In this document: piece by piece, positions 31,558 through 52,766 of the stretch | Numbering within the stretch: position 1 is the first letter of the stretch | Layout of the letters: the number at the start of each line of letters is the position of its first letter | Source of the DNA: Mesoterricola sediminis | GTDB taxonomy: Bacteria; Acidobacteriota; Holophagae; Holophagales; Holophagaceae | NCBI RefSeq assembly: GCF_030295425.1 | Contig: NZ_AP027081.1 | Coordinates: 3,641,001 to 3,705,000, forward strand | Direction of reading: 5' to 3' | DNA: 64,000 nt | Translations under genes and position numbers: made by a program | Notes under the pieces: generated by a model | The model's database searches: none | The model's input: only the letters and a program-made list of their open reading frames with translations | What the model was told of the DNA's origin: nothing

Positions 31558-31849
31558 GCAGGGCCGACTACACAAGGTCTGGGAGGAGGTGTGCACCCGA
31601 GCTGGCGTGGAGGACCTGAACATCCACGACTTCCGATCGTTGGCAGCCAGTGAGGCCGAGGCGCAGGGCCTCGGGCCCAAGACCGGCGCGGCTATCCTCG
31701 GACACAAGGACATCCGAACCACCCTGAAACATTACACCCGGGCCAGGAAGACCCGAGAGGCCGCTGCCAAGGTGGCGGCGCCCATCGCAAGGGCGCTTTC
31801 CGGGAAGGCACCCGGCCCAAGAAAAACCCCGGAAGAGGAGCAAGAATAG
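31558..31849 (+). pseudogene. Tyrosine recombinase/integrase, C-terminal fragment
   Basis: About 95 codons remain, beginning inside the catalytic domain next to the IS21 end: RLHKVWEEVCTRAG, then HDFRSLAASEAEAQGLG with the H-x-x-R of the active site, ILGHKDIRTTLKHYTR with the second histidine and the nucleophile tyrosine, and a charged tail to the stop. The N-terminal and arm-binding domains are missing. Reading across the original junction (IS21 removed) does not restore integrase sequence, so the gene was already broken, probably by the IS5-type element. It is the likely integrase of the genomic island that follows. Confidence 0.82.
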
Positions 31850-31876: not shown

Positions 31877-34800
31877 TCAGTTACTACATGCTATTACCAA
31901 CTCACAATCAACTGTCTCTTTCAAATAGGTTGCAGTTGAGGCTAACACCATATTCTGCTCGGACGTCCTATTCATTACAGATAACCCAGGCTGAACAATG
32001 ACAATTTCGAAGCCAATTTCTTTGTACTTTGAGTTCTTTAGAAGATGATTCAAGACCAACCTATCTCCCCGGAGAAATCTCGAGACCGGGAGAGGGAATT
32101 TGCTCTCGCGGTTAATCAAATGATTCCTGAGGTCTTTAAAGCGCCATTTCCACTTAGAGGACCTGACCGCCTGAGAGCATACTTTGTCGACATCCGAAAT
32201 CCGACTTCCAACTGTGTCTGAACCAGCAAATTTGCAATGAACAAGGGTTAATTGGATCTTCGTTTCTGCTTCCTTCAAGCAAACCAGATCAGCGGCTTCG
32301 CCTGCCCCATCATCATTAAAAACGATATCAAAGTCATTTTCGATAAAGTATGAAGCCGCCTTATTCTGAATGGAATCCGACCTCGAAAAACCATTTTTCC
32401 ATATCGATTCTTTTTTAAAATCTACCCCGTCCCACTCCCAAATATCAAATCTCCAATCTTCGACATGAATATCTTTGGGATCCTTTGGCTTGATCAGCAA
32501 ACCGCCATCCATTTCCCATAAATTAACGAACCTCACAATTGGAGGATAGTCCGAGAAATATTGTTCTGCCGTAACACATAGTGAGCCTATCTCGACATAC
32601 AATTTCTCTCCATCAATCTGAGTTACCCTGTGGCCAAATTCAGCCCCGAGTTCTATTCTAAATATTCCAAGAGCCGAATCGCCATCAACACACAAAATAA
32701 AATCGACGGATATTGCGGTAGAATCATTATATTGAATGTCAATCAAATACAATGGCCAACTACTGCCAATATCACCGCCATGGGAAAACTTAACTCTTTC
32801 CTCAGATACGCCCAACAACTCCACTGGCCAATCAACACCCAACACAGCAATCTGAGGGATTGAGACAATTGGTTCGGGTATAAGAACATTAGAAATGATA
32901 TTATCCACTGAAATATTATCATCTATCAACTTTGCCCCAATTTCTCCAAACCACCCGACAAGCTGCGGAATAGTTCCAGCATCTTTTGACCAAACGCGTC
33001 CTTTAGCTGAACAACCAATTGCGATTCTCTTTCCATTTTCCCAGCCCGCACCACTCACATTATTCTTAACCGAGCCAGCTCCTTCTGTTACAGTAAGAGC
33101 CTGCATAACATCAGCGCCTGTATACATTGCATAGCTTAGATTTCGCCGCCCATATTTTTTAACACCCATGGACTGGAAAATTAGCCTCTTGATTCCTCCA
33201 AGAGAACGAAAAACTTGTTCACCTGCCACTAAATTTGCTTCTCCAGAGACAGCCATTGCCATTTCACCAAAACAAGAGTCCTTATTAGAAGAAGCCAAGA
33301 AGAGTAAGGATTTTTTTTCATCGAAATGCAATACAAATAGATCCCAAGAGCTATCCCAAAGAACTTTCGTTTTTAGCCAACCTGGTTTCCCTACAGATTT
33401 GGTGACGAAGAATAAAGTATTATCCTTCTCATTCAACCATGCCGCCTTAACCTGGAAGTCATCACTTAACCCATTGAAAAATCTTTTCGGGAAAAATTCT
33501 TTAGCCCTGTACACCAAAGCACTGTACACAGGCCGCAAAACCCTTGGAGAAATAACTTCCTCTCTATCTAAATCTACCAACTTTTGAGAATTAGCTAAAA
33601 ATTCAACAAGTGCTTGGTGTTCCCTTACTGCCGAGGAGCTCATCTCTCTTAAAAGTTTATTCCAATCAGCATCTTGGCTATATAGACATTCTAATGCTGA
33701 AGAGATATTTTCTTCTGCGATATTTCCAATTACTTTTGCGTTTCCTATATTAGCATCTGAAACACGTGTAAAGCGCCCAATAAATTGAAGAAATACACTT
33801 AAGCTTTGCACCATATCATGAATTGCGGCAATCTTAAGCCTTGGCATATCAAAACCCTCACCGAGCATGCCAACACACACCACAATTCGACAACCACCCG
33901 AATACAATACCCCCAATCGCTCTGAAATGTTTTCAAGGTTGGCATACAGTATCATTGGGTTTAGATCGTCAGCGATTGACTTATATTCTTGAAACACCAA
34001 TTTAGCTCGAGCAACCGTTTTACATTTGGCCATCAAAATGTGGTCATAACCATTTTCTAGATCCAGTCTTAACTCTTCAACTGCTTTTTCAGAAATAGCC
34101 CTGTCAGCATATTCCGGTACAAGCTCAAAAATGGGTATAAATTCGATGGGCTTAAAGTATGAATCTTTTTGAGCTGTGCCTAACGGATAATTAAAAATTA
34201 CTTTTCCATCAACCAATTCACCATCTCGCCTAAAAGGCGTGGCAGTAAATTGCAAAATCTTCTTGCCGTCGAAAGCTCGCTTGATTTGATCCCAGCCACT
34301 TGCGGCAAGGTGATGCGCCTCATCAAAGATCACAGCTTCGCATTTGGATGCCACTTCCTGAAGCAGCCCAGGGTTTATTCCAGCCAATGAACTGGCGGTA
34401 CATATAACAACATTGCATTGATCAAAGATTGAGATTGATTCAAACGATTTAATCTTTTTATATATTATACCAACGATTGGGTTCTTAGAGTTTTCTCTCA
34501 AAATACCTAATTTTTTTAAAATTCCATGTTGTATAAATTTTTTCATCGCCTGAGTCCGCAATGCATCCCATGGCACAACCACAAGTAGCGGACCTCGCAA
34601 ATAGGCCGCCATTGTGGCCAACATTGTCTCGGTCTTACCAGTGCCTGTTGGCATAACGATCGTTGCAGGAGATTCGTCAAGGCTCCAATGAGAACCGATA
34701 GCATGTAATGCGCCTAGCTGTGGAGGTCGGAGACCATTAGAGACCAGGCATCCATCCGCACCCATTCGCTGTGCCGAGAAGGAAAAATTTTTAGCCCATT

Positions 34801-35140
34801 CCCCAGCATTTTCTTCTGCAATTTCGCCAAGCCCGCGATCGGCAACCCTCTCACGAAATTGGTCCAGCAACCGATGCGAAAGCCATTTGCTCGATTCACC
34901 ATCGCCTACAAATAGAACGCCCTCTATATCATCTGGTCTTTCAATTTTTCTTCTTTCGGTAACAATGATTTTATCCCCAGACTGAAGGGAAATAACCTTT
35001 TCTTTTATCCGTGGAGAAATATTAATATATTCTTCACCGACAATATTCTGATTCTCTCCCAATCTGAGGAGGCACACAATGTTACCGACCGGATGTTTTT
35101 TTTGAAAGATAATCGCAGGAAGCCAGAGGGATTGAAGCAT
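31877..35140 (-). CDS. SF2 DEAH-box helicase with C-terminal nuclease-like domain (putative phage defence)
   Basis: 1087 residues from the ATG (MLQSLWLPAIIF) that has GGAGG 5 bases upstream; a longer in-frame start is less likely. Superfamily 2 helicase core: Walker A MPTGTGKT (163-170), DEAH box FDEAHH (about 273), motif III TATPFRRD (about 299), motif VI QFIGRFTRV (about 452), similar to HsdR-type and phage-defence helicases. The middle 450 residues match nothing I recognise. Near 945-970, AADLVCLKE followed by LTLVHCKFA resembles a PD-(D/E)xK nuclease core with His in place of the acidic residue. The gene is very AT-rich, far from its neighbours, and so was acquired horizontally. No partner gene adjoins it, so it may act alone in degrading foreign DNA. 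Confidence 0.75.
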   Translation of the reverse strand: MLQSLWLPAIIFQKKHPVGNIVCLLRLGENQNIVGEEYINISPRIKEKVISLQSGDKIIVTERRKIERPDDIEGVLFVGDGESSKWLSHRLLDQFRERVADRGLGEIAEENAGEWAKNFSFSAQRMGADGCLVSNGLRPPQLGALHAIGSHWSLDESPATIVMPTGTGKTETMLATMAAYLRGPLLVVVPWDALRTQAMKKFIQHGILKKLGILRENSKNPIVGIIYKKIKSFESISIFDQCNVVICTASSLAGINPGLLQEVASKCEAVIFDEAHHLAASGWDQIKRAFDGKKILQFTATPFRRDGELVDGKVIFNYPLGTAQKDSYFKPIEFIPIFELVPEYADRAISEKAVEELRLDLENGYDHILMAKCKTVARAKLVFQEYKSIADDLNPMILYANLENISERLGVLYSGGCRIVVCVGMLGEGFDMPRLKIAAIHDMVQSLSVFLQFIGRFTRVSDANIGNAKVIGNIAEENISSALECLYSQDADWNKLLREMSSSAVREHQALVEFLANSQKLVDLDREEVISPRVLRPVYSALVYRAKEFFPKRFFNGLSDDFQVKAAWLNEKDNTLFFVTKSVGKPGWLKTKVLWDSSWDLFVLHFDEKKSLLFLASSNKDSCFGEMAMAVSGEANLVAGEQVFRSLGGIKRLIFQSMGVKKYGRRNLSYAMYTGADVMQALTVTEGAGSVKNNVSGAGWENGKRIAIGCSAKGRVWSKDAGTIPQLVGWFGEIGAKLIDDNISVDNIISNVLIPEPIVSIPQIAVLGVDWPVELLGVSEERVKFSHGGDIGSSWPLYLIDIQYNDSTAISVDFILCVDGDSALGIFRIELGAEFGHRVTQIDGEKLYVEIGSLCVTAEQYFSDYPPIVRFVNLWEMDGGLLIKPKDPKDIHVEDWRFDIWEWDGVDFKKESIWKNGFSRSDSIQNKAASYFIENDFDIVFNDDGAGEAADLVCLKEAETKIQLTLVHCKFAGSDTVGSRISDVDKVCSQAVRSSKWKWRFKDLRNHLINRESKFPLPVSRFLRGDRLVLNHLLKNSKYKEIGFEIVIVQPGLSVMNRTSEQNMVLASTATYLKETVDCELVIACSN

Positions 35141-35370
35141 TGGTCCTCCAATTTTCATTTCCCACATCCCTTCGCATGGAGATGCGACAAAAGAAAGGCC
35201 ATCGTTTCACAAACCTGTATAATTCATAAGATCAGACCTAGCATACACTCCTCCATTCTCCTAAACCATCAGAATTTCCTAGCCATCAGAAGCAAAAAAG
35301 GCCTATCGGCCGCGAATCAGAGTGCTTCTGGGACTGGGAGATCAATATATTTGTACGTGGACCTCCTGAC

Positions 35371-36045: not shown

Positions 36046-38508
36046 ATGGTTGAGCGTTCGCCTGGAAGCCCGAACCTTTCCGAACTCTTGCAGGAATTCT
36101 CTCTGGTCGCCGAAGCGTGGTTCCATGAGCGGCCTTTCGTCCAGGAATTCCATCGCTTCGTGAAAGATTTCTTTCGTCCGGAGAACCTGCAGGCCGCCGA
36201 GTGGCCTGCCTTCCAGGCTCTTGCGAACCACTTGCATAGCCTTAACAGCCTTGCGATCGCCAAAGGCAACGCATTCGGCAACCCGAATTACCCGATCGAG
36301 CGCTATCGGGAGTCCTTTCGTTTTCTAGCCCACGGTCCAGGCACCGTCGAAGAGCGGATGCGTCTGTTCATGGACGACAACGAAACCTATGCAAGTAAGT
36401 ACCTCGGCATCGCGGTGGTTTCCGAGTTTATAGGCCAGCTCTTCGCCGAACAGTTCGTGTTCATGAACCGCCGGGACTTGGAAGCAGCCGAATACTTGGG
36501 AATCCATCCGTCCTACCCCAAAGGAGCGGACTTTCCAGCAAGGTTCGTTGCGTTCAACGCAGCCTTGACGCTGGTTTTCTCAAAGTACAACGAGGTCGTT
36601 GGCTGCCACACAGGGGTGCCAATTGGACTTGAAGTGGACCAGTTCCTCAGCTGGATCTATGAGACCAAGCTGCCCAAGGAGGGAACTGAAACCAAGAAGG
36701 ACCTACCCAAAGGGCAACAGGTCTGGGTGTTCGCCCCAGGTCGCCAGGCGAAGTACTGGGAGGAGTGCCTTCAAGACCAGGTGGCGGTGATGGGATGGGA
36801 CGAACTAGGCCCGCTGAACTCCTACCCGAACAAGGAGGCGGTACAGAGCCGCCTCCAAGAGCTATGGCCTTCAGAAGGGGTCCAAACGAATAACGCCAGG
36901 ACGACATGGGACTTCTGCCATGTCATGAAGGATGGGGACATCGTCCTGGTGAAGAAGGGCAACAAGAAAATTATCGGCGCCGGATATGTCCGTGGAGACT
37001 ACCGGTTCGACCCATCCCGCCCGGAATACCGGCATGTTCGCGACATGGAATGGGTCAAAAAGGGAGAGTGGGCCGTCCCTTCCGAGGATGGGGCGCTTGC
37101 CACCAAGACCCTCACGAACATCACACGTTTTAAAGACTCCACAAGAAAACTCCTAGACACCATTGGGATCCAATCCCACGCGGTTGCAACGGTCGCTGGC
37201 CCTAACCACTATTGGCTCAACTGTTCGCCGGATATCTGGAAGGTCTCCGAGTGCCTTCCCGGTTCGGAAGAATCCTACACGACCCACAACGATGAGGGAA
37301 ACAAGCGCCAGGTCTACGCTTGCTTCAAGGAATCCAAGCCCGGTGACCTGGTAATCGGATATGAAACATCCCCGGTCAGGAAGGTCACAACCATCCTTGA
37401 GATCGTACAAGGGATCCATGACCATCCAGTGGCAGGAGAGACCATCACATTCCGGGTTCTGAAGCAGCTAAAGGAGCCTCGAAGCCTGGAAACCCTCCGA
37501 GACATCAAAGCCCTGTCCGACTGCAGCCCTGTGATGGATAAGCGGCAAGGCAGCCTCTTCAGGATCACGAAGCCCGAATATGAGGCCATTCTTGGAGAGG
37601 AGCCGGTGGAGGCCCCAGGTGAGCCCGAACCGGAGGTTGCCGAAGAGAGCTATTCCATCGAGGAGGCCCTGGAGGGCCTCTTTGTCAGCGAGGAGACGTT
37701 CCGGGGTTGGCTAAGGCAGTGGGCGGACGGGAAAAACCTTGTGCTCCAGGGACCTCCTGGGGTGGGAAAGACCTTCGTGGCCCGAAGGCTAGCGTATGCC
37801 CTCATGGAAGCCGAGGATCCGAAGAGAGTCGCCATGGTCCAGTTCCACCAGTCCTATGGCTACGAAGACTTTGTCCAAGGATACCGGCCGACCAAGGAGA
37901 AGGGGTTCGAGCTCCGTAAGGGCGCCTTCTACGAGTTCTGCTTGAAGGCCAAGGAGGAACGGAACAAGCCCTATGTCTTCGTCATCGATGAGATCAACCG
38001 GGGCAACATCTCCAGGATCTTCGGGGAACTCCTGATGCTCATAGAGAAGGACAAGCGGGGAGAGGACAACGCTCTGAGGCTGGCCTACCAGGAAGAAGGG
38101 CAGACCTTCTTCGTGCCGGAGAATGTACACATTCTCGGCCTGATGAACACAGCCGATCGTTCTCTCGCAATGGTCGACTATGCCCTGCGCAGGCGCTTCC
38201 GCTTCGCTTCCCTCAAGGCGGCCCTTGATTCAAAGCCCTTCCGGGAACATCTGGTCGAGTCCTGCGAAAGTGATGACCTGGCCGACCGAATCATCACCCG
38301 CATCGGAAGGTTGAATGCGGATATCGCCAAGGATGTAGCCAACCTTGGCCCGGGCTTCTGCATCGGCCACAGTTACTTCTGCAAGCTAAAATCACGGGAA
38401 GAATACCTGGACATCATCGGTTACCAGATCGCGCCCCTGCTGCGGGAGTACTGGTTCGACGCACCCAAGGTGGCGGAAGGCTGGATCCAGGATCTCCTTG
38501 GGATCTGA
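36046..38508 (+). CDS. McrB-like AAA+ GTPase with N-terminal PUA/EVE-type modified-base domains
   Basis: 820 residues. Residues 1-220 are of unknown fold. About 225-345 (WVFAPGRQAKYWEECLQDQ, later GDIVLVKKGNKKIIGAGYV) looks like a PUA-superfamily module; about 385-515 (AGPNHYWLNCSPDIW, later GDLVIGYETSP) is an EVE domain, the reader of modified cytosine in several McrBC relatives. The McrB motor follows: GPPGVGKT at 569-576, VFVIDEINRGN at 644-654 and MNTADRS at 700-706. It should assemble a hexamer that recognises modified DNA and recruits McrC. The mcrC-like gene starts 1 base after its stop. GC content is lower than the core. Confidence 0.9.
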   Translation: MVERSPGSPNLSELLQEFSLVAEAWFHERPFVQEFHRFVKDFFRPENLQAAEWPAFQALANHLHSLNSLAIAKGNAFGNPNYPIERYRESFRFLAHGPGTVEERMRLFMDDNETYASKYLGIAVVSEFIGQLFAEQFVFMNRRDLEAAEYLGIHPSYPKGADFPARFVAFNAALTLVFSKYNEVVGCHTGVPIGLEVDQFLSWIYETKLPKEGTETKKDLPKGQQVWVFAPGRQAKYWEECLQDQVAVMGWDELGPLNSYPNKEAVQSRLQELWPSEGVQTNNARTTWDFCHVMKDGDIVLVKKGNKKIIGAGYVRGDYRFDPSRPEYRHVRDMEWVKKGEWAVPSEDGALATKTLTNITRFKDSTRKLLDTIGIQSHAVATVAGPNHYWLNCSPDIWKVSECLPGSEESYTTHNDEGNKRQVYACFKESKPGDLVIGYETSPVRKVTTILEIVQGIHDHPVAGETITFRVLKQLKEPRSLETLRDIKALSDCSPVMDKRQGSLFRITKPEYEAILGEEPVEAPGEPEPEVAEESYSIEEALEGLFVSEETFRGWLRQWADGKNLVLQGPPGVGKTFVARRLAYALMEAEDPKRVAMVQFHQSYGYEDFVQGYRPTKEKGFELRKGAFYEFCLKAKEERNKPYVFVIDEINRGNISRIFGELLMLIEKDKRGEDNALRLAYQEEGQTFFVPENVHILGLMNTADRSLAMVDYALRRRFRFASLKAALDSKPFREHLVESCESDDLADRIITRIGRLNADIAKDVANLGPGFCIGHSYFCKLKSREEYLDIIGYQIAPLLREYWFDAPKVAEGWIQDLLGI

Positions 38509-38509
38509 A

Positions 38510-39568
38510 ATGACGGGAATCCCAATCCGGAATCTCTACTATCTGCTCGGTTACGCCTGGGACCTTTTGGAGGAGGCCGAGACGTGGCAGGTAGAGTTGG
38601 AGAACCTGCCTACCGGACTCGACCTCCTCACTCGGCTGATCCTCCGCGGGACCCAGCGTTTACTGAGAAGGGGAATTGATCATGGGTACATGGCACAGGC
38701 GGATGTCCTAACCACGATCCGCGGGCGAATCGATTTCACGGCTTCAGCCCGACGCATGTTGATGGAACGGGCAAAGGTGCAATGCGACTTCGAGGAATTC
38801 CTGCCCGACCTGCTCCACAACCGAATTCTCAAATCGACCCTCAGGAATCTACAGGCATATCCAGAGGTTGCTCAACGGCAGAGATCCGAAGTCCATGTTC
38901 TGCTGAGGCGAATGGAGGGGATCACGCCCTTGAAGATCAGGTCCACCCATTTCGGCTCGGTCCGTCTTCACCGGAACAATGCTCATTACGCCCTCCTGAT
39001 GCACCTCTGCCGGCTGGTGAATGCCAATCTCCTGGTATGTGAGGAGACCGGGAAAACCACATTCAAGAACTTCATGCGGGAGAAGGGTCAGATGGCGAAG
39101 CTTTTCCAAAGCTTTGTCTATAACTTCTACCGCAAAGAAACTCAGTTCGTTGTTAGCCAGGAGGTCCCCATCGACTGGGATAGTCAGGAGCCCAACCCTC
39201 TGCTCCCTAGCATGAAGGCGGACTTGATCCTCAAGAGGAAAGACCGCACCATCGTGGTGGAGTGCAAGTTCTATGAAGAGGCTCTTCAGACCCACTACCT
39301 AGGCACCTCGCCGAAGCTCCATTCCACCCATCTCTACCAGCTATCGACCTACCTCCAGCACTTGCAGCCAGGGCTTGATGGTACCCCACCCGAAGGGCTT
39401 CTCATCTACCCTGCCACTGGCATTCAGTTCTCCACCGACTTGGTCCTCGCCGGTAAGCGTATTCGCGCCTGCACCCTTGATCTGATGGAGCCTTGGAACC
39501 TGATCGCCGAGCAAATGCACAGGTTCCTGGTCCAAGGTCACAGCTATCCCCATATTGGGTATTCCTAG
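38510..39568 (+). CDS. McrC-like nuclease subunit of the type IV restriction system
   Basis: 352 residues from the ATG one base after the mcrB-like stop. The N-terminal part (IPIRNLYYLLGYAWD) is the McrC domain that docks on the McrB ring. The PD-(D/E)xK nuclease core is near the centre: ADLILKRKDRTIVVECKFY, with the aspartate, glutamate and lysine in place. Together with the EVE-McrB protein it forms a modification-dependent restriction system that cuts DNA carrying modified bases, such as phage hydroxymethylated genomes. Both subunits are intact. Confidence 0.92.
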   Translation: MTGIPIRNLYYLLGYAWDLLEEAETWQVELENLPTGLDLLTRLILRGTQRLLRRGIDHGYMAQADVLTTIRGRIDFTASARRMLMERAKVQCDFEEFLPDLLHNRILKSTLRNLQAYPEVAQRQRSEVHVLLRRMEGITPLKIRSTHFGSVRLHRNNAHYALLMHLCRLVNANLLVCEETGKTTFKNFMREKGQMAKLFQSFVYNFYRKETQFVVSQEVPIDWDSQEPNPLLPSMKADLILKRKDRTIVVECKFYEEALQTHYLGTSPKLHSTHLYQLSTYLQHLQPGLDGTPPEGLLIYPATGIQFSTDLVLAGKRIRACTLDLMEPWNLIAEQMHRFLVQGHSYPHIGYS

Positions 39569-39613: not shown

Positions 39614-41221
39614 TCACGCCAAGTCCCTTGTGAGCGCCGAGACACACTCGATGGCGATGCCAATGACCGCCACGGCGAAACTCGTCGTAGGAGGGCACTC
39701 GGGGTAGTCCTTCAAGTGCTGGCCGAAATCACCGATCGACCGCAGATTGTCCAGCAATAGGAACGTTGACCTCGTCAGTGCCTTTGCCTTCCTATCAATC
39801 AATCTGGGGCCTATCTTTTTGCCGGTGAGCAAATCGAGGGCGTGCATTTGCTCGCCGTCACCGGAAGGGAGTCGCTTCCTATCGTCGAGCCATCTTGGAG
39901 TCGCACCACCGTATTGCCATTCCATGATCCAGTCGTCTGGGAATGTCCGACTAGAATCAAGTTCTTTTGCCCAAATCAGTTGGAGTGCTCGCTGCACAAG
40001 GCTCCTGATGGCTACTAGGCTCATCTCGGGCGAGGTCGCGACATCGCGAATGGAGTGCTTCAGGTAGGTGACCAACTGCTGATCTGCACCTTGGGAGGCC
40101 AAATGGCCGACTCGCAATTCGAGGAATCCCTCAACGTTTGCCATGTAGTCGGTCATGGCGCCGAACAATCGCTTCAGATCGGCCACTACCGGCCCCTGCT
40201 CTAACGAATACTTCGCCATGAGCCGGCAAGCCGACCGAATCTTGTTCCCTGATGGCAACCCATAGCCGCGGCCTTCAAGCGCGCGCTGCCTCGGAGCAGA
40301 CAGCTCGGAAAGGGCAATGCCTTCGCTCTCGGAGACAGCGGCAATATCACCGCGCAGTTCGACACTACAGTCATCCCAGAGTTGCTCCAGGTGGGCGGGG
40401 GGCTGCTCCAGCATCCTCGTCGCGATAATATCGACGTTGTTCTTCGTTACCGCTTGCCCGCTTTGCGCCGTCTCGGCAATGCGCTCAAGAAGCGCAGCTG
40501 CTAGAACTGGCACGCCACCGGACCAATTCATTAGCTCCTTCCTTGCCGATGAGTCTACTGCGACACCATTGGCAATCAGCGGTGCAAGCAGGTCGTCCCA
40601 GTCGTCTTCTATAAAAGGTCCGATGAGAATCGGCGCATCGTAAAAGATTTCCCAAAAATCAGAGGTACGGGATTCCTCCGTACGACAAAGCTCTCGCAAT
40701 GGCTGTCTGCTTCCGGTAACGAGACGTAAGCTGGATTTCTGTGCGAGCGACCGGAGCTGATCCCACAACGTTCTCGTGATCCCTGCCCCCGAGAGGACAT
40801 GGTCGAAGCCGTCGAGAACGACCAGCATGCGGGCTTGTCGCTGCTCCAGTTCCTGGAATGCTAGATCCAGGAGCTCATGAAGGCCACCGTCGGCCAAGTC
40901 GATGAATTCCGCCACTTCGGGAAACACGGGCGCGAGGGCCACCTTGACCGTTTCGGCGAATCGTCGCCGAAAATTTGCATCGTCTGCGGGCGGAGCGTGG
41001 CGCAAGTCAACGTAGGCTGCCGTTGCATATTGGGTCTTCCCCGTCTTATGGCGCCCAGCCAGATCCGCAAGCAGCACAGACTTTCCGTACAACCTCGGCC
41101 CAACAATCTGGACGTGGTCGGGAGATGGCTTCGAGACGTGACGTTCGATCTGTTCAATGAGGCGGCGCCGGCCGAGCATCTTTGGCACCGTTGTGCCCAT
41201 CACCTGGTAGGGGTGGTTCAT
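39614..41221 (-). CDS. P-loop NTPase (AAA/STAND-like), last gene of the restriction operon
   Basis: 535 residues. N-terminal GRRRLIEQIERH (the domain-entry motif seen in Orc/STAND ATPases), Walker A GPRLYGKS at 41-48, Walker B MLVVLDGFD at 132-140 (aspartate-glycine replaces the usual aspartate-glutamate), and a sensor-like VTGSR. A winged-helix region probably follows at about 230-330. The C-terminal 200 residues are unrecognised and could hold the effector or target sensor. Its start overlaps the stop of the 1376-residue fusion gene in ATGA, so the two are cotranslated and likely interact. Confidence 0.75.
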   Translation of the reverse strand: MNHPYQVMGTTVPKMLGRRRLIEQIERHVSKPSPDHVQIVGPRLYGKSVLLADLAGRHKTGKTQYATAAYVDLRHAPPADDANFRRRFAETVKVALAPVFPEVAEFIDLADGGLHELLDLAFQELEQRQARMLVVLDGFDHVLSGAGITRTLWDQLRSLAQKSSLRLVTGSRQPLRELCRTEESRTSDFWEIFYDAPILIGPFIEDDWDDLLAPLIANGVAVDSSARKELMNWSGGVPVLAAALLERIAETAQSGQAVTKNNVDIIATRMLEQPPAHLEQLWDDCSVELRGDIAAVSESEGIALSELSAPRQRALEGRGYGLPSGNKIRSACRLMAKYSLEQGPVVADLKRLFGAMTDYMANVEGFLELRVGHLASQGADQQLVTYLKHSIRDVATSPEMSLVAIRSLVQRALQLIWAKELDSSRTFPDDWIMEWQYGGATPRWLDDRKRLPSGDGEQMHALDLLTGKKIGPRLIDRKAKALTRSTFLLLDNLRSIGDFGQHLKDYPECPPTTSFAVAVIGIAIECVSALTRDLA

Positions 41222-44200
41222 GCGCGCGACTCCTCTGCTTCTTCCCGGGCGCGGGCAACCGCGTCATCAAAATCGATTGAGGTTCGAATCCACATGCCGA
41301 GCAAAGGCACGGCAATCCGGTACGTGCCTCCACGATATGCCTTATCAAATTCTATCAATTCAAGTTCGCGCAAATACTCCAGGTCGTCGCCGATCTGACT
41401 GTCCAGATCGACATGGACGCCCAGGGCTTCGAGTTGGGCAGAAAACAAAGCAAGGTTTATTGGGTCCGGACCATCGGCGAGACGGTCACATAACACAAGA
41501 AGCAACCGGCGCCTGTGCGTCTGTGCGTAGCCCCAGAGTGTCCGAAAATGCTCATTGTCGCGAACCATTTCGGCAGCGGCCTCATTCACCGCCGCAAGCG
41601 TGATGATGCGCTCTTTGGTTTTTGCGGCCCGCTCGAACACACGGTTGCAAAGGGACTGCACAAGGAACGGCTGGCGTGCGCAGAGATCAACAAGCAGATC
41701 TCGTGCGGCCGGTAGGTAACTCAGTCGATCAACAACGGGCTCGATGACAAGGCGCTGCGCATCCTCAGGTGGGAGTGCACTGATACCGATCCGGTACCCA
41801 AGCCCGAAAAGTGCTGACCAGTACTCTTCACGAAGACGTTTAAACCTGCGCGACCCTGTAAGAACGGCCGATAGTCCCGCATGATGCTGCAGGAGGTGAC
41901 GAATGTTCTCAGGAACCTGAGGGCTCGTTACCCCGCTATCGATACCTTCCTGCAGTTTGTCAAACTCATCGAGCATAAGGAGTACGCGTCGAGGTCGTGC
42001 TGCTTCAAGTGCGGCTGAGAGGTACTCCTCAAAGATCTCGAATGGGTGGGGCCCGGAGAATGCATGATCAAGCGCAGCACGAAACTCCACCTTAAAGGGA
42101 CGGTCGCCTTCAAGTTTAGGACCACCGGGGAACCAGGTGCGTATGCCTGCATCGGAAAGAGTCCATCCAAGCATCCTTGCCATTAGTCTATAAACGCTCT
42201 GGGTCGTGATCCCTGCCTTGGATTCGTCACCCTCAGTATTTTGGAATGAGCAATAGACCGGTATCCAGCCTGGTAGCGCGCCCTTCTTCATCAACTGCTT
42301 GAGAACTGAAGTCTTACCCGTCCGCCGGTTGCCTTCCAGCAGGATGACATTGGCGTTAGCCTCAGAGCCCAGCTGTCGCCTGATGCGCTCAATCACTTCG
42401 GCACGGCCGAAGAACATGTCATCCCGATCGATTGGGTTTCCAACGATGTACGGACTCGGTCCAAGATCTCCCGCTAGGACGGCCTGCCTGGTGGACCGCA
42501 CGAGGATTTCGATGGTTTCGTCACCGCGCACAGGCATCCCATCCAGTCGCATAGCCTCCCAACGCACTCGGATCTCAAGAGCCCTACTCGAGTCGATCGC
42601 GTGGATGGTGAGCGGGACCCGCATCATACTGCCCTCTGCCACATAGGACGCGTTTCCCGTCCCGACATCGGGATCAGTGAAAACGCGAACTGCACGTAGA
42701 CCGAATGTTGATGCGTTTTCTAATTCAAGTCGCACCTCTGTTGGAACCCCCACAACCACCTCAGGGGGCTCGGCTTTCAATCTGAGCTTGGCAGGCCCAA
42801 GCATCTCTGCCGTTGCCGCGTCGAGAAGATGTTCCAGTGCGGCCATCAAGCTTCTAAGGCGTATAACGAGCAACCTCGATCGCGAATGCGACCCCAATTC
42901 ATGTTTCGATCCCGACTGTGATCCGCGCGTGATCAATTCCTCGTCACCGTCGAATCCAAGCGCGCGCCGAGCGATTTCCAGCCGGCTCTTTGCTAACTCG
43001 AGCACAGCAATTCGCGGAGCTCCTTCTGGAACGGTGTCGATGCCCACAAGGATTGGAGCCAATTCAGCGGCCGCGATCAGCCAATGCCTCACTGCGTCCG
43101 TCAGCACTATTTCCTTACCATGAACAATGCGATTCCGAAGGGACCGAAGTTCCTGAAGTTCGTGGCCAGCACCTGAGAGTGCGTGAGTGACATCAGTCGT
43201 TTGTGCTTTGTCGGACAGGAGTGAGACAACTCCTGGTCGCTCAAGCCATGCGGCCATAGGATCAGAGGTGCCACCGGCAGCAAATCTGAGGAGGAGCAAG
43301 AGAGCATCCCCTCGAGGTTCAAGCGTCCTAAGGACAGCGTCCTGGATTGCGATCGGCAACACAGGCACCGGCAAGTTCCCGAGCGTTCGCACAGATAAGT
43401 GCTGGATCGTCACGCCTCGGGCATGGCCGTGCATCCACGATTGGTAGGCAGGAGACCTAAGCAGTGCTGCCAGGAAGGACGCTTGAACATCCGCATTGCA
43501 CCGAACAACCGCGACGCTCTTTGCGGGGACAGATCCGACGGTGCCAGCCGCATCGGAAATGACCGCTGCCTTCCCGACGGTGCCCGACAATGTGACTGCG
43601 ACATCACCGGCGCGCAGAAGTTGCTTTTCTTTCAGCCGAATGGCCCCTTCTCGGGTGAGGCGCATGCCGGGGATCTTTGCCCCGAAGTCGGAAAAGTCAC
43701 CGACACGCAGTAGCCCCAATGTCCCTTCTTCCTTCGGGTTTGTTGAAGTGACCGATTTGTCGTACGTCACCCCGAGCGCAAGATCAGCCACTTGGCGGAG
43801 GGGGACAACTTTGATGGAAGGATCAGTGGCAACAATGCGCTCAAGCGTGGCACGTAACTCATCTGCTCCGGTGTGCTTCGCGAGTAGCTCGTAATCGCGC
43901 GCTGCGAGGGCTGAAACGTCAACATCCCATGCATCCACACCGGGAGCTAGCCCGATGGAATCAATTCGCTCATGCCGGATGAGCATCGGGAGGTCACGGA
44001 ATAAGCTATGCGAAGGGGCACTTAAAGTAGGGCTTCCAGGTTGCCCTTCACTGGAATCAATTCCATCACCTGATCGGCTTTGGCCACCTGCCGCAACATA
44101 GCCGTCGCCATCGCCGAATCTGGCGCCAGCGTTGACACGCCAAGCCTTTCCAGGGACGGTGACAAAACGCACGTTGGAGCGGGGGGCCTCACGCCGAAAG

Positions 44201-45348
44201 ACAACCAGGCTCGACGGGACGGCGGTACATGGGGCGAATGCCCCTTCGGGTAACGCGATGATGCCATCTACGCGGTACTCATCGAGCAGCACCTTTCGAA
44301 CCAGCCGATCAGGACCCGTGCGAAAGAGTGTACCTTCGGGAAGAGCGATAACCGCGCGTCCTCCCGGCCGGAGGTTTGCCATCACATGCTGAAGGAAGAG
44401 ATTTTCTATGCCTCCTGATGGGACTGGATACTGGCGAGATCTGGCATCCAAAAGACGGCCGCCCCATGGCGGTGCCGCTAAAATGCAATCAAACCCCTCC
44501 ACTGCCCGGTTTCTTGGAAGCGGACGCTCAAGAGCGTCGCCGAGCTCGAGCCCGGGCTTGTCAATGCCCGCAAGGACCATACGGCACAACCCGATGACAA
44601 ACGGCGCAGCGTTGATCTCGACACCGAAGATGCCGTTGTTGCGCACGTCGTCCCAGCGCTGGAGACCTTGGGTAGCAATAGTCTTCCACAGTCGCCGCGA
44701 GGCTTCGACGAGCAGACCACCGACACCGAAGCATGGGTCGTAGACTCGATCACCAGGCTTCGGGTTGACGAGGTCAACCATGAGGCTAACTACGGAATTC
44801 GGGGTTGTATACTCACCACCAAATTTTCCCTGCCCCTCCATGACCTTCTCTAGCAGTTCGTCGAAGGCTGCCGCTGCAATATTCCGCCCATCGGCCCCGT
44901 CAAATGGCAATCCTGCCACCCATTCCACAAGGCCCGCGAATACCTCACGGTGCCGCGTATAGCACTCCAGCACGGGAGGGGCAGCTGCGGCAACATATCG
45001 GCCGATCGTGGCTTGATGGCCCGGGCCCACTTCGAGCAGGCCTGTGCTCAGCCGTGCCACAAGCCCCTGAGCATCACACCAGGAAACCTGCCTAAGCGTC
45101 TCAGGAAGTTGCGGCACGAATGGCGTGTCGTCGAACGCAGACACTGCCTCCATTTCCGCATCCATGAAAGCCGCCCAGCGAACCACGAGGAGGCCCGCCA
45201 GCGGCGACAGAAATTCGACAACGTTTGCAGCAGATGAAGACCGCCATCGGTCTGCCACAGCCCAAATGGCATCAGAAGCCTTCCGGGCATCGGTGCTGTG
45301 GGTGCCTCTTGTCATGGCTTGCGAGACCTCGAGGCCATCATAGTTCAC
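41218..45348 (-). CDS. Fusion: N6-methylase-like + HsdS-like + HEPN-type motif + Ig-like + STAND-like ATPase
   Basis: 1376 residues from GTG (an ATG at 45315 is an alternative). Residues about 160-400 are an HsdM-type N6-adenine methylase fold with motif I DPCFGVGG (204-211), but motif IV reads AAPPW (291-295) instead of NPPY/F, so catalysis is doubtful. About 510-680 is an HsdS-like target recognition domain (VVPLRQVADLALG, then HLSVRTLGNLPVPVLPI). RNRIVH at 738-743 matches the HEPN Rx4-6H motif. About 855-950 is a predicted immunoglobulin-like beta domain. About 970-1345 is an AAA/STAND NTPase: FGRAEVIERIRRQL, Walker A EGNRRTGKTS (1005-1014), Walker B VLLMLDEFDK (1122-1131). It overlaps hsdS by 11 bases upstream and the second ATPase gene by 4 bases downstream. 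I infer a DNA-sequence-recognising switch tied to the type I enzyme. Confidence 0.8.
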   Translation of the reverse strand: MNYDGLEVSQAMTRGTHSTDARKASDAIWAVADRWRSSSAANVVEFLSPLAGLLVVRWAAFMDAEMEAVSAFDDTPFVPQLPETLRQVSWCDAQGLVARLSTGLLEVGPGHQATIGRYVAAAAPPVLECYTRHREVFAGLVEWVAGLPFDGADGRNIAAAAFDELLEKVMEGQGKFGGEYTTPNSVVSLMVDLVNPKPGDRVYDPCFGVGGLLVEASRRLWKTIATQGLQRWDDVRNNGIFGVEINAAPFVIGLCRMVLAGIDKPGLELGDALERPLPRNRAVEGFDCILAAPPWGGRLLDARSRQYPVPSGGIENLFLQHVMANLRPGGRAVIALPEGTLFRTGPDRLVRKVLLDEYRVDGIIALPEGAFAPCTAVPSSLVVFRREAPRSNVRFVTVPGKAWRVNAGARFGDGDGYVAAGGQSRSGDGIDSSEGQPGSPTLSAPSHSLFRDLPMLIRHERIDSIGLAPGVDAWDVDVSALAARDYELLAKHTGADELRATLERIVATDPSIKVVPLRQVADLALGVTYDKSVTSTNPKEEGTLGLLRVGDFSDFGAKIPGMRLTREGAIRLKEKQLLRAGDVAVTLSGTVGKAAVISDAAGTVGSVPAKSVAVVRCNADVQASFLAALLRSPAYQSWMHGHARGVTIQHLSVRTLGNLPVPVLPIAIQDAVLRTLEPRGDALLLLLRFAAGGTSDPMAAWLERPGVVSLLSDKAQTTDVTHALSGAGHELQELRSLRNRIVHGKEIVLTDAVRHWLIAAAELAPILVGIDTVPEGAPRIAVLELAKSRLEIARRALGFDGDEELITRGSQSGSKHELGSHSRSRLLVIRLRSLMAALEHLLDAATAEMLGPAKLRLKAEPPEVVVGVPTEVRLELENASTFGLRAVRVFTDPDVGTGNASYVAEGSMMRVPLTIHAIDSSRALEIRVRWEAMRLDGMPVRGDETIEILVRSTRQAVLAGDLGPSPYIVGNPIDRDDMFFGRAEVIERIRRQLGSEANANVILLEGNRRTGKTSVLKQLMKKGALPGWIPVYCSFQNTEGDESKAGITTQSVYRLMARMLGWTLSDAGIRTWFPGGPKLEGDRPFKVEFRAALDHAFSGPHPFEIFEEYLSAALEAARPRRVLLMLDEFDKLQEGIDSGVTSPQVPENIRHLLQHHAGLSAVLTGSRRFKRLREEYWSALFGLGYRIGISALPPEDAQRLVIEPVVDRLSYLPAARDLLVDLCARQPFLVQSLCNRVFERAAKTKERIITLAAVNEAAAEMVRDNEHFRTLWGYAQTHRRRLLLVLCDRLADGPDPINLALFSAQLEALGVHVDLDSQIGDDLEYLRELELIEFDKAYRGGTYRIAVPLLGMWIRTSIDFDDAVARAREEAEESRA

Positions 45349-50419: not shown

Positions 50420-51925
50420 TTATAAAATTACTTCATAGCGAGCTAGCCAGTTGGTGAGTGTCTGATAGCTCGGCAGGCCTACCAACTCCGCGGCTTTGGT
50501 CTTATTGCCTGCTGCTTCATCCATCGCCCGGCCGAGGTAATGGCGGGCTACATCCTTGAGCAAATCCGGCAGATTCAGACCGCCACCTAAGGGCCGGCCA
50601 AGAACTCCTGTACGGGTTGCGGCGCTCGACGGGAGAAGGGCCTCCCTCATGTCCTCCGAACTGATGGTTGCTGAATCAGACCATATGACAGCACGACGAA
50701 GTGTGTTCGCCAATTCGCGAACGTTACCCGGCCAGGGATGTCCGAGCATAAGATTTCTTGCGCCTGCAGAAAGTTTTTTATTCTTGGCTCCGGGCTCGGA
50801 TGATGCCTCTCTGTTTACCTGCTCTAACAGAGTGTCAATGAGCAGGCTGATATCGCCAGTGCGCTCACGCAATGGCGGGATATTTAGAACCGCGACCGCT
50901 AATCTATAGAAGAGGTCTTCTCGAAACCGGCCAGCGCCAATCTCCTCGGTCAGCGTCTTATTGGTTGCCGCTATGACGCGCACATCGACCTTGGCCGGCT
51001 TGGTGGACCCGAGGCGAACGACCTCTCCCTCTTGGAGGACTCGAAGCAGCTTCACTTGCGCTGGTCCAGGCAACTCACCCAACTCGTCCAGGAACAAGGT
51101 GCCGCCATTGGCCGCTTCGAAGTATCCCTTGTGAGCCTGGGTAGCCCCAGTAAATGCGCCCTTCTCATGGCCGAACAACTCGGATTCCAATAGTTCACCG
51201 GGAATCGCGCCGCAGTTAACGGCAACAAACCGATTATCTCGGCGTGGGCTTGCACGGTGGATTGCCCGTGCGAGCATTTCCTTGCCGGTACCAGATTCAC
51301 CTTCGATGAGGACTGGCACGGTCCTGATGGCGACGCGACGCGCACGCTGGATAAGCCGGTCCATAACCCGACTCCGATGAACGATATCAGCGAACTCTGG
51401 AGCAGCTGGAGGCTCCACGGTGCTGAGCAAGCGCAAGCGCTCGTCCTGCTCCCGGAGAAGATCCGGAAGGAAGTCTGCCGAGATATCAAAAGGAACTGAG
51501 GCCGTCTGCACCCCCCTCTCGCGCGAGGACTCGATCAACTCGGCTGGGAATCGCGTCTTGGCGAGGATTATCCACACGGCAGCCATCGCAGGGGTGCCAG
51601 GACTGAGATGGTAGGTGAGCGACGTTGTGGTCCGCTGGTTGCCGAGCGCCTTGGCGCAGGCTTTGGCGGCAGCCTCATAGATTTCGCCGAAATTGGTGGG
51701 ACCCGATAGTTTCACGGTGAAGGTATCGATGCTTGTCGAGGTGCGCTGCTTGATCCACTCGACGAACGCCTTCACCTCCTCCTCGGGATAGTCGCTGACT
51801 AGGACGACCTTATCGAAGGCCCGGGCATCTAGCGCCTGCGCGATCGGCCCCACCCCGACCTTATCAGTCTCGGATGGGGCGCGAAGGTCGGTTTTGCCGA
51901 TCCAACTGACGAGAGCCCTTGTCAT
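50420..51925 (-). CDS. RtcR-like sigma54-dependent activator with N-terminal CARF-type sensor domain
   Basis: 501 residues from the ATG giving [10 protein letters not shown] (12 more in-frame codons lie upstream). Residues 1-150 form a Rossmann-like domain resembling the RtcR CARF domain: [30 protein letters not shown] and the ligand-loop-like [19 protein letters not shown] complete bacterial enhancer-binding AAA+ domain follows: Walker A GESGTGKE (208-215), the sigma54-contacting loop GAFTGA (256-261) and Walker B TLFLDE (276-281). A Fis-type HTH ends the protein ([11 protein letters not shown]). RtcR senses RNA ends to induce RNA repair; CARF domains bind cyclic oligonucleotides or related ligands. 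Here it sits directly before a type I restriction operon with a sigma54 promoter between them. Confidence 0.88.
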
Positions 51926-52253
51926 AGCTATATGCATACAAGAATTTTTACTTAAACACAAAACAATTTATACATAATGTTCTCTTCCAGGTTCTGTTCG
52001 CCTAAACCCTGAGCTTGGCATTCGCGAGAATGGATCGCAGGCGGAAACCAATTGTTTCTCCAGGCCTTATGGTTTCGCTTTGCAACCACACTTGACAAAC
52101 AAACCGAACCAACCAAATTTTTTCCAGTCCAGGTTGTGCTCCTTGCCCTTCCTGGTGATTCCAATCGATCCACATTCGCCATCGGGATCCTTCGGGTGGC
52201 GGTGATTGACTTTATTCAGAGCCCTTTGATCAACATTTCGACTAGAGAACCAC
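51926..52253. other. Gene-free stretch upstream of the sigma54 activator
   Basis: About 330 bases, locally AT-rich next to the activator gene (51945-51980). It should carry the divergent promoters of the activator (-) and the HTH gene (+). No certain promoter or operator is seen. A minus-strand frame ending near 52067 (containing NLDWKKFGWFGLFVKCGC) overlaps the HTH gene and is not a convincing gene. Confidence 0.4.
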
Positions 52254-52670: not shown

Positions 52671-52675
52671 TAAGT

Positions 52676-52766
52676 TGGCGGAGAGTGGGGGATTCGAACC
52701 CCCGATACGCTTTTGACGTATACACGATTTCCAGTCGTGCTCCTTCAACCACTCGGACAACTCTCC
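52676..52766 (-). tRNA. tRNA-Ser (anticodon GGA)
   Basis: 91 bases including the encoded CCA. The acceptor stem GGAGAGT pairs with ACTCTCC, the discriminator is G, the anticodon stem-loop is CACGACTGGAAATCGTG with anticodon GGA, the variable arm is long as in class II tRNAs, and the T loop is GGTTCGAATCC. It reads Ser codons UCC/UCU. Its 3' end faces the island, the usual orientation for an attachment site, but I found no second copy of the 3' end at the left border. Confidence 0.97.

Follow-up and report, generated by a model that had tools for sequence, protein, structure and literature searches.

A stand-alone SF2 helicase–nuclease with a predicted RdgC/RexA-like fold is a candidate anti-phage protein in a defence island of Mesoterricola sediminis

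The window, the stretch of 64,000 nucleotides from Mesoterricola sediminis that was analysed, carries an intact, uninterrupted open reading frame (31877–35167, minus strand) for a helicase–nuclease. Two ATG codons could open this frame. A Shine-Dalgarno sequence, GGAGG, sits 5–6 bases 5' of the inner ATG at 35140, and the 1087-aa product is therefore preferred; residue numbers throughout are counted from the upstream ATG (1096 aa), and subtracting 9 gives the 1087-aa numbering. GC content was 0.42 in the gene, compared with 0.55–0.58 in the downstream island (35–53 kb) and 0.70–0.75 in the genome (about 0.72), which bears out the strong A+T richness reported by a first-pass annotation of the sequence. 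A chance reading frame was ruled out because the family covers the entire protein and its motifs are invariant. Promoter and terminator scans gave results near chance.

An integrase remnant and IS21 genes flank the gene on one side and a divergently oriented McrBC operon flanks it on the other; a type I restriction–modification (RM) operon lies beyond. Its earlier description as a gene standing alone was correct in one respect: these flanks hold no partner nuclease such as HamA, and the family has no partner gene. The gene is not isolated, however, since it lies in a defence island beside the IS21/integrase remnants and McrBC. The right edge of the island is formed by a tRNA-Ser gene: the sequence becomes homologous to that of two further species of the genus at 52675/52676, exactly at the tRNA 3' end. 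No left attachment site repeating the tRNA-Ser end was found in the window, where the longest exact match was 11 bases. The left edge was probably lost to IS21 and DDE transposase insertions at 27.9–31.4 kb.

Other genes of the island showed features of their own. McrB (36046-38508) carries an EVE domain at residues 389–516 and a PDC-S02-like stretch at residues 225–339, likely a modified-base reader arrangement. Between 39614 and 51961, an RtcR-type CARF–sigma54 regulator (50420-51961) lies upstream of hsdR, hsdM and hsdS, which are followed by a 1376-aa fusion of an N6-methylase, an HsdS-like specificity domain and a STAND-type ATPase (41218-45348) and a 535-aa AAA/TniB-like ATPase. This region is an unusual, possibly signal-controlled extension of a type I RM system.

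Table 1. Positions of the helicase–nuclease gene, its domains, island landmarks and helicase-free relatives (window positions, except where a locus label precedes them)
Feature	Position	Strand	Basis or remark
Helicase–nuclease gene, preferred start	31877..35140	-	1087 aa; GGAGG before ATG 35140
Alternative upstream ATG	35167	-	product 1096 aa
N-terminal beta domain, residues 13–98	34874..35131	-	AlphaFold model; ORF lengths of relatives
SF2 helicase core, residues 146–485	33713..34732	-	Pfam ResIII/DEAD/Helicase_C; invariant residues; RadD Z about 27
Predicted RdgC/RexA-like DNA-binding fold, residues 545–754	32906..33535	-	VIA structure matches; Foldseek BFVD
Predicted beta-rich linker domain, residues 760–910	32438..32890	-	AlphaFold model
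Predicted PD-(D/E)xK-fold nuclease domain, residues 925–1096	31880..32395	-	VIA matches to predicted model
Putative catalytic motif A-D960-(X16)-H977-C-K979	32231..32290	-	invariant residues, 40 members
Tyrosine integrase C-terminal remnant, just downstream of the gene	31589..31849	+	Pfam Phage_integrase 2.2e-6, profile 119–171
McrBC operon (McrB with EVE domain; McrC), divergent	36046..39568	+	island neighbour, no partner
tRNA-Ser, 3' end at right island edge	52676..52766	-	ARAGORN; homology breakpoint
Helicase-free relatives near CBASS genes	L088:6986-8854, L089:6788-8665, L090:6566-8437, L095:6001-7860, L096:6001-7659
Helicase-free relative in the window's phylum	L082:7791-9602		pairs with DUF2235-like gene; CBASS cyclase not seen

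AlphaFold models of the full-length protein (pLDDT 85.8) and of the C-terminal 577 residues, 520–1096 (pLDDT 89.6, pTM 0.87), gave a predicted order of N-terminal β domain, RadD-like SF2 core, RdgC/RexA-like fold, β-rich linker and PD-(D/E)xK nuclease. The N-terminal domain is missing in several relatives, whose reading frames begin just ahead of the helicase. The assignment to SF2 made at first pass was confirmed by Pfam matches to ResIII (E=1.3e-25), DEAD (1e-11) and Helicase_C (2.5e-4). Walker A (173–179), DEAH (282–285) and TAT (308–310) motifs are present, motifs V and VI are intact, and the SF2 motifs are invariant across the same 40 proteins in which the nuclease residues were compared.

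The closest structures to the core were RadD and Mfd, both with Z about 27. RadD (YejH), the nearest solved core, has a length of about 586 aa and lacks both the middle and the nuclease domain; the NCBIfam model heli_RadD_YejH scored 36.3 bits against a cut-off of 720, over the core only, and a housekeeping RadD was rejected. XPB and Mfd were rejected as housekeeping identities on the same ground of core-only matches. A full-length match to a housekeeping helicase, named at first pass as a result that would count against defence, was thus absent. The PADLOC check proposed there recognised the family through the SF2 core only, and from about residue 500 to 1096 no Pfam, NCBIfam or PADLOC model covers the protein.

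The middle region, first described as unrecognised, is indeed outside every library model; its predicted structure now largely accounts for it as an RdgC/RexA-like fold. By VIA, the model of residues 545–754 matched RdgC with Z 7.8 (rmsd 4.3, 187 residues aligned), and further matches were to Iml3, CENP-N/Chl4 and CENP-L, and weakly to RexA (Z 4.5, rmsd 13.3). Foldseek against a second library, BFVD, returned viral models named RdgC (prob 1.0, E 2.5e-4 to 1.4e-3). RdgC, IML3 and CHL4 are the published fold relatives of RexA (PMC11077077), which gives the RdgC-like assignment more weight than its Z score, marginal when taken alone. No sequence link to RdgC was detected by hhalign against the E. 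coli protein, a profile built on residues 520–1096 matched no PDB sequence at E<=10 when run against the full set, and Foldseek of the 520–1096 model against the PDB gave nothing below 1e-3, its top rows being meaningless long beta proteins. The likeness predicted here is therefore one of fold level only. RdgC and lambda RexA differ from the window protein in being stand-alone proteins without motor or nuclease. Structural matches to the linker that follows (residues 760–910) were weak. These structural comparisons extended to the families present in the fold lists used.

The C-terminal region was claimed at first pass to be PD-(D/E)xK-like, and the comparisons upheld this. Its predicted order is helix-strand-strand-strand-helix-strand. 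In VIA the model of residues about 925–1096 matched the CdiA-CT nuclease 4g6u (Z 9.0, top of the list), FokI (Z 8.6, 135 residues, rmsd 3.6), Nt.BspD6I (Z 8.0) and EndoMS (Z 7.0). Eight residues (D952, E957, A959, D960, H977, K979, Q999 and R1020) did not vary across 40 family proteins. The spacing D960-X16-H977-x-K979 is identical to that of the FokI site, D450-X16-D467-x-K469. Read against PD-X(n)-(D/E)xK, the family thus has Asp and Lys at FokI-like spacing and, in every member, His for the middle acid. Catalysis is uncertain because this His stands where Asp or Glu is usual.

To place the protein in a family, 84,980 bacterial and archaeal species genomes were scanned. The scan yielded 42 loci, most encoding proteins of ~950–1120 aa collinear with the query and the rest broken or cut by a contig end, at 24–50% identity and from Pseudomonadota, Actinomycetota and Bacteroidota. 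One relative (L083:7340-9184), close to the end of its contig, breaks off partway into the RdgC-like region, after its first part, and is either a truncated gene or an assembly edge. Matches were present in 180 plasmid records, with at least 80% of the protein covered in 56, and in a viral collection the matches on 10 contigs extended past the SF2 core, in nine cases over nearly the full length. Members occur in E. coli (WP_087602985 of NZ_CP082773 is an example), on Klebsiella plasmids and in soil bacteria. The distribution is patchy: one of six genomes of the window's genus has the gene, 4 of 396 genomes of its phylum have a match that spans the entire C-terminal half, and of 5426 genomes 14 carry one E. 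coli allele and 8 another. In a maximum-likelihood tree the window protein grouped with a Halomonas protein. Phylum labels changed three times on this tree against a minimum possible of two, suggesting inter-phylum transfer just once.

At most 3 of the 41 loci shared any one neighbour gene, so there is no HamA-like partner. Among 109 nearest neighbours from 37 loci, PADLOC found many different defence families, several of them matched over the full protein length: RT_UG6 (1303 bits), HsdR, NsnA, DndH, PD-Lambda-2, AbiEii, a type III methylase (MTase_III), RT-nitrilase and PDC-S08/S48. This tally counts families rather than proteins. The 102 control ORFs, from 20 arbitrary genomic places, matched only promiscuous kinase, UvrD-helicase and RtcR-type/sigma-54 models that cross-react with ordinary proteins; the contrast is qualitative because the control was drawn from other taxa. 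A defence neighbourhood is an association, not a function. In E. coli, the gene is located in integrase–tRNA islands. In two strains it begins 6–12 bases after hsdS, directly following hsdRMS, in two others it adjoins broken hsdR/hsdM and is itself intact, and at one locus it lies near retron Ec78–PtuAB.

One E. coli allele was accompanied by a protein of 416–421 aa, unassigned to a family and encoded 152 bases downstream in the same direction, in all five loci inspected (for example L046:11132-12397 and L072:15435-16700). It was not seen with the other allele.

The C-terminal half also occurs without the motor. A profile of residues 520–1096 found helicase-free proteins of 603–625 aa (E 2e-31 to 7e-15) that retain DDG, ExAD and HxK, the last as H-A-K or H-V-K. 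Five of these lie near CBASS genes (Table 1): four of the loci hold cyclase and SAVED-HNH type genes, with PADLOC support, and the fifth has an HNH-annotated gene at the same place, with no cyclase seen. The gene directly upstream was annotated DUF2235 in two loci and unnamed, of the same length, on the Khangiran2 plasmid; Roseibium has an unnamed gene there, and in A. pusense none was listed. Other helicase-free relatives are alone on plasmids, some adjoining integrases or restriction endonucleases, and none was found in viral contigs. A single CBASS region of one Roseibium plasmid holds both the helicase-free form (L090:6566-8437) and a full-length member (L090:869-4168; 31% identical over 1007 residues). 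Because helicase-free relatives lie in CBASS loci, the C-terminal half has a tie to antiviral loci that does not depend on the helicase, and these proteins are candidates for an unrecognised CBASS effector or accessory.

Among described systems, the closest in kind is Hna (S. meliloti SMa2245; PADLOC PDC-S28), which likewise is encoded by a single gene, carries its PD-(D/E)xK nuclease after an SF2 helicase and has a broad, patchy distribution. Hna acts by abortive infection (PMC12445080, PMC13381803); it has a 3'–5' exonuclease that ATP restrains and a phage SSB releases (PMC13381803). The two proteins differ in build: Hna has 845 aa, a DinG/XPD-like motor with a reduced Arch and a PD…ExK site (P712 D713 E727 K729), whereas the window protein has 1087 aa, a ResIII/RadD-like motor, a predicted RdgC/RexA-like insert and D960…H977-x-K979. 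A true Hna (L075:12345-14882, 845 aa) scored 1020 bits against PDC-S28 and the window protein gave no match at E<=1; hhalign against Hna aligned 130 helicase columns and nothing of the C-terminal half. Identity with Hna was therefore rejected, the single-gene feature being shared and the profile, the layout and the ExK site not. By analogy, Hna is the best working model for mode of action, not for identity.

Other known identities were rejected as well. Hachiman also sets a helicase and a PD-(D/E)xK-type nuclease against phage, but uses two genes with HamA as separate effector, whereas the window protein is one chain; no hamA (DUF1837) is adjacent, and HamB gave no match to the window protein at E<=1 (5 of 40 relatives matched at E<=0.001). 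A type III Res subunit was rejected on a REase_III match of E=0.0054 over about 105 residues and no adjoining mod gene, and PbeA, DinG, Cas3, DrmA and DpdF on matches confined to the helicase core. Nor is the protein left over from a known multi-gene system whose other parts are missing, the second outcome that the first-pass annotation had set against its proposal. Searches by protein accession or phrase found no paper on the family in a literature that scarcely covered preprints and subscription papers. One-protein helicase–nuclease defence is a known kind; a family with an RdgC/RexA-like part, as modelled, and an HxK site is unnamed in PADLOC 2023, Pfam, NCBIfam or the literature reached.

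We consider it likely that the window protein is a stand-alone anti-phage (or anti-mobile-DNA) helicase–nuclease, probably one of the same kind as Hna that has yet to be described. The family strengthens the proposal of a single-gene defence system: across it, members have the nuclease tail, occur sporadically on mobile DNA among assorted defence genes and share no conserved partner. The evidence comprises an intact SF2 core, a predicted RdgC/RexA-like fold, a predicted FokI-like nuclease with invariant D960/H977/K979, the absence of an obligatory partner and locations mostly in mobile or defence islands.

A modification-dependent, type IV-like enzyme comparable to SauUSI or McrBC, with a middle that would read foreign base modifications and an SF2 motor that would power the cutting of modified DNA, is unlikely. 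SauUSI-type enzymes are also single-chain, ATP-dependent SF2 proteins, they need no methylase partner, and McrBC adjoins the gene in the window. The PADLOC mREase_IV model matches 39 of the 40 members, but only over the SF2 core of the helicase. Beyond it, similarity to SauUSI stops: the SauUSI nuclease is of the phospholipase-D type, and no SRA, EVE or other known reader was found in the middle of the window protein, where the best fold is RdgC/RexA-like. Quite unlikely is an enzyme of DNA repair or mobile-element maintenance that joins a RadD-like motor to an RdgC-like recombination module and has no part in defence. Such a role would fit the RadD match (Z 27), the recombination-associated nature of RdgC and the frequent location on plasmids and islands; it fits poorly with a gene that is rare and patchy within species and genus, whose defence neighbours change between loci and whose helicase-free relatives sit inside CBASS loci.

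The HxK that replaces (D/E)xK in all members could also mean a catalytically dead nuclease in a protein that only binds or remodels DNA. This is very unlikely: a decayed site would drift, whereas H977, K979, D952, E957 and D960 are invariant, and QxK or SxK sites of the PD-(D/E)xK fold can be active, as in Mrr and CdiA-CT EC869. Least probable is an accessory working with HsdRMS of type I RM systems. The gene follows immediately after hsdS in two islands of E. coli, adjoins hsdR/hsdM remnants in other E. coli and is 10 kb from a type I RM operon in the window, but most relatives are without an RM neighbour, and the helicase gene has stayed intact in the E. coli strains with broken hsdR/hsdM.

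As a stand-alone defence protein, the helicase–nuclease would grip DNA with its RdgC/RexA-like domain, probably as a dimer like RdgC and RexA, and its SF2 core would move on or remodel DNA with ATP. With neither a protective methylase nor an immunity gene alongside, the nuclease would have to be restrained in healthy cells; most likely the ATP-driven DNA-binding motor keeps it in check until infection-type DNA is met. The nuclease would then cut upon this infection-specific DNA state, for which replication forks, recombination intermediates or single strands coated by phage SSB are possible triggers. As for Hna and Hachiman, the likely outcome would be that the phage DNA, or the phage and host genomes alike, is degraded.

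More tentatively, the RdgC/RexA-type fold and HxK nuclease may together form a recurrent, undescribed defence module, which with an SF2 motor makes a stand-alone single-gene system and in the motor-less form of 600–625 aa, beside a DUF2235 gene, is recruited into CBASS loci. If the family is defensive, it would add a widespread one-protein helicase–nuclease system, present from E. coli and Klebsiella plasmids to soil bacteria. RexA is itself a DNA-binding protein of phage exclusion (PMC11077077), and a defensive family would also link the RexA/RdgC fold, whose part in Rex exclusion is a long-standing puzzle, to an effector nuclease; the sensing of phage replication or recombination DNA by this fold would become testable.
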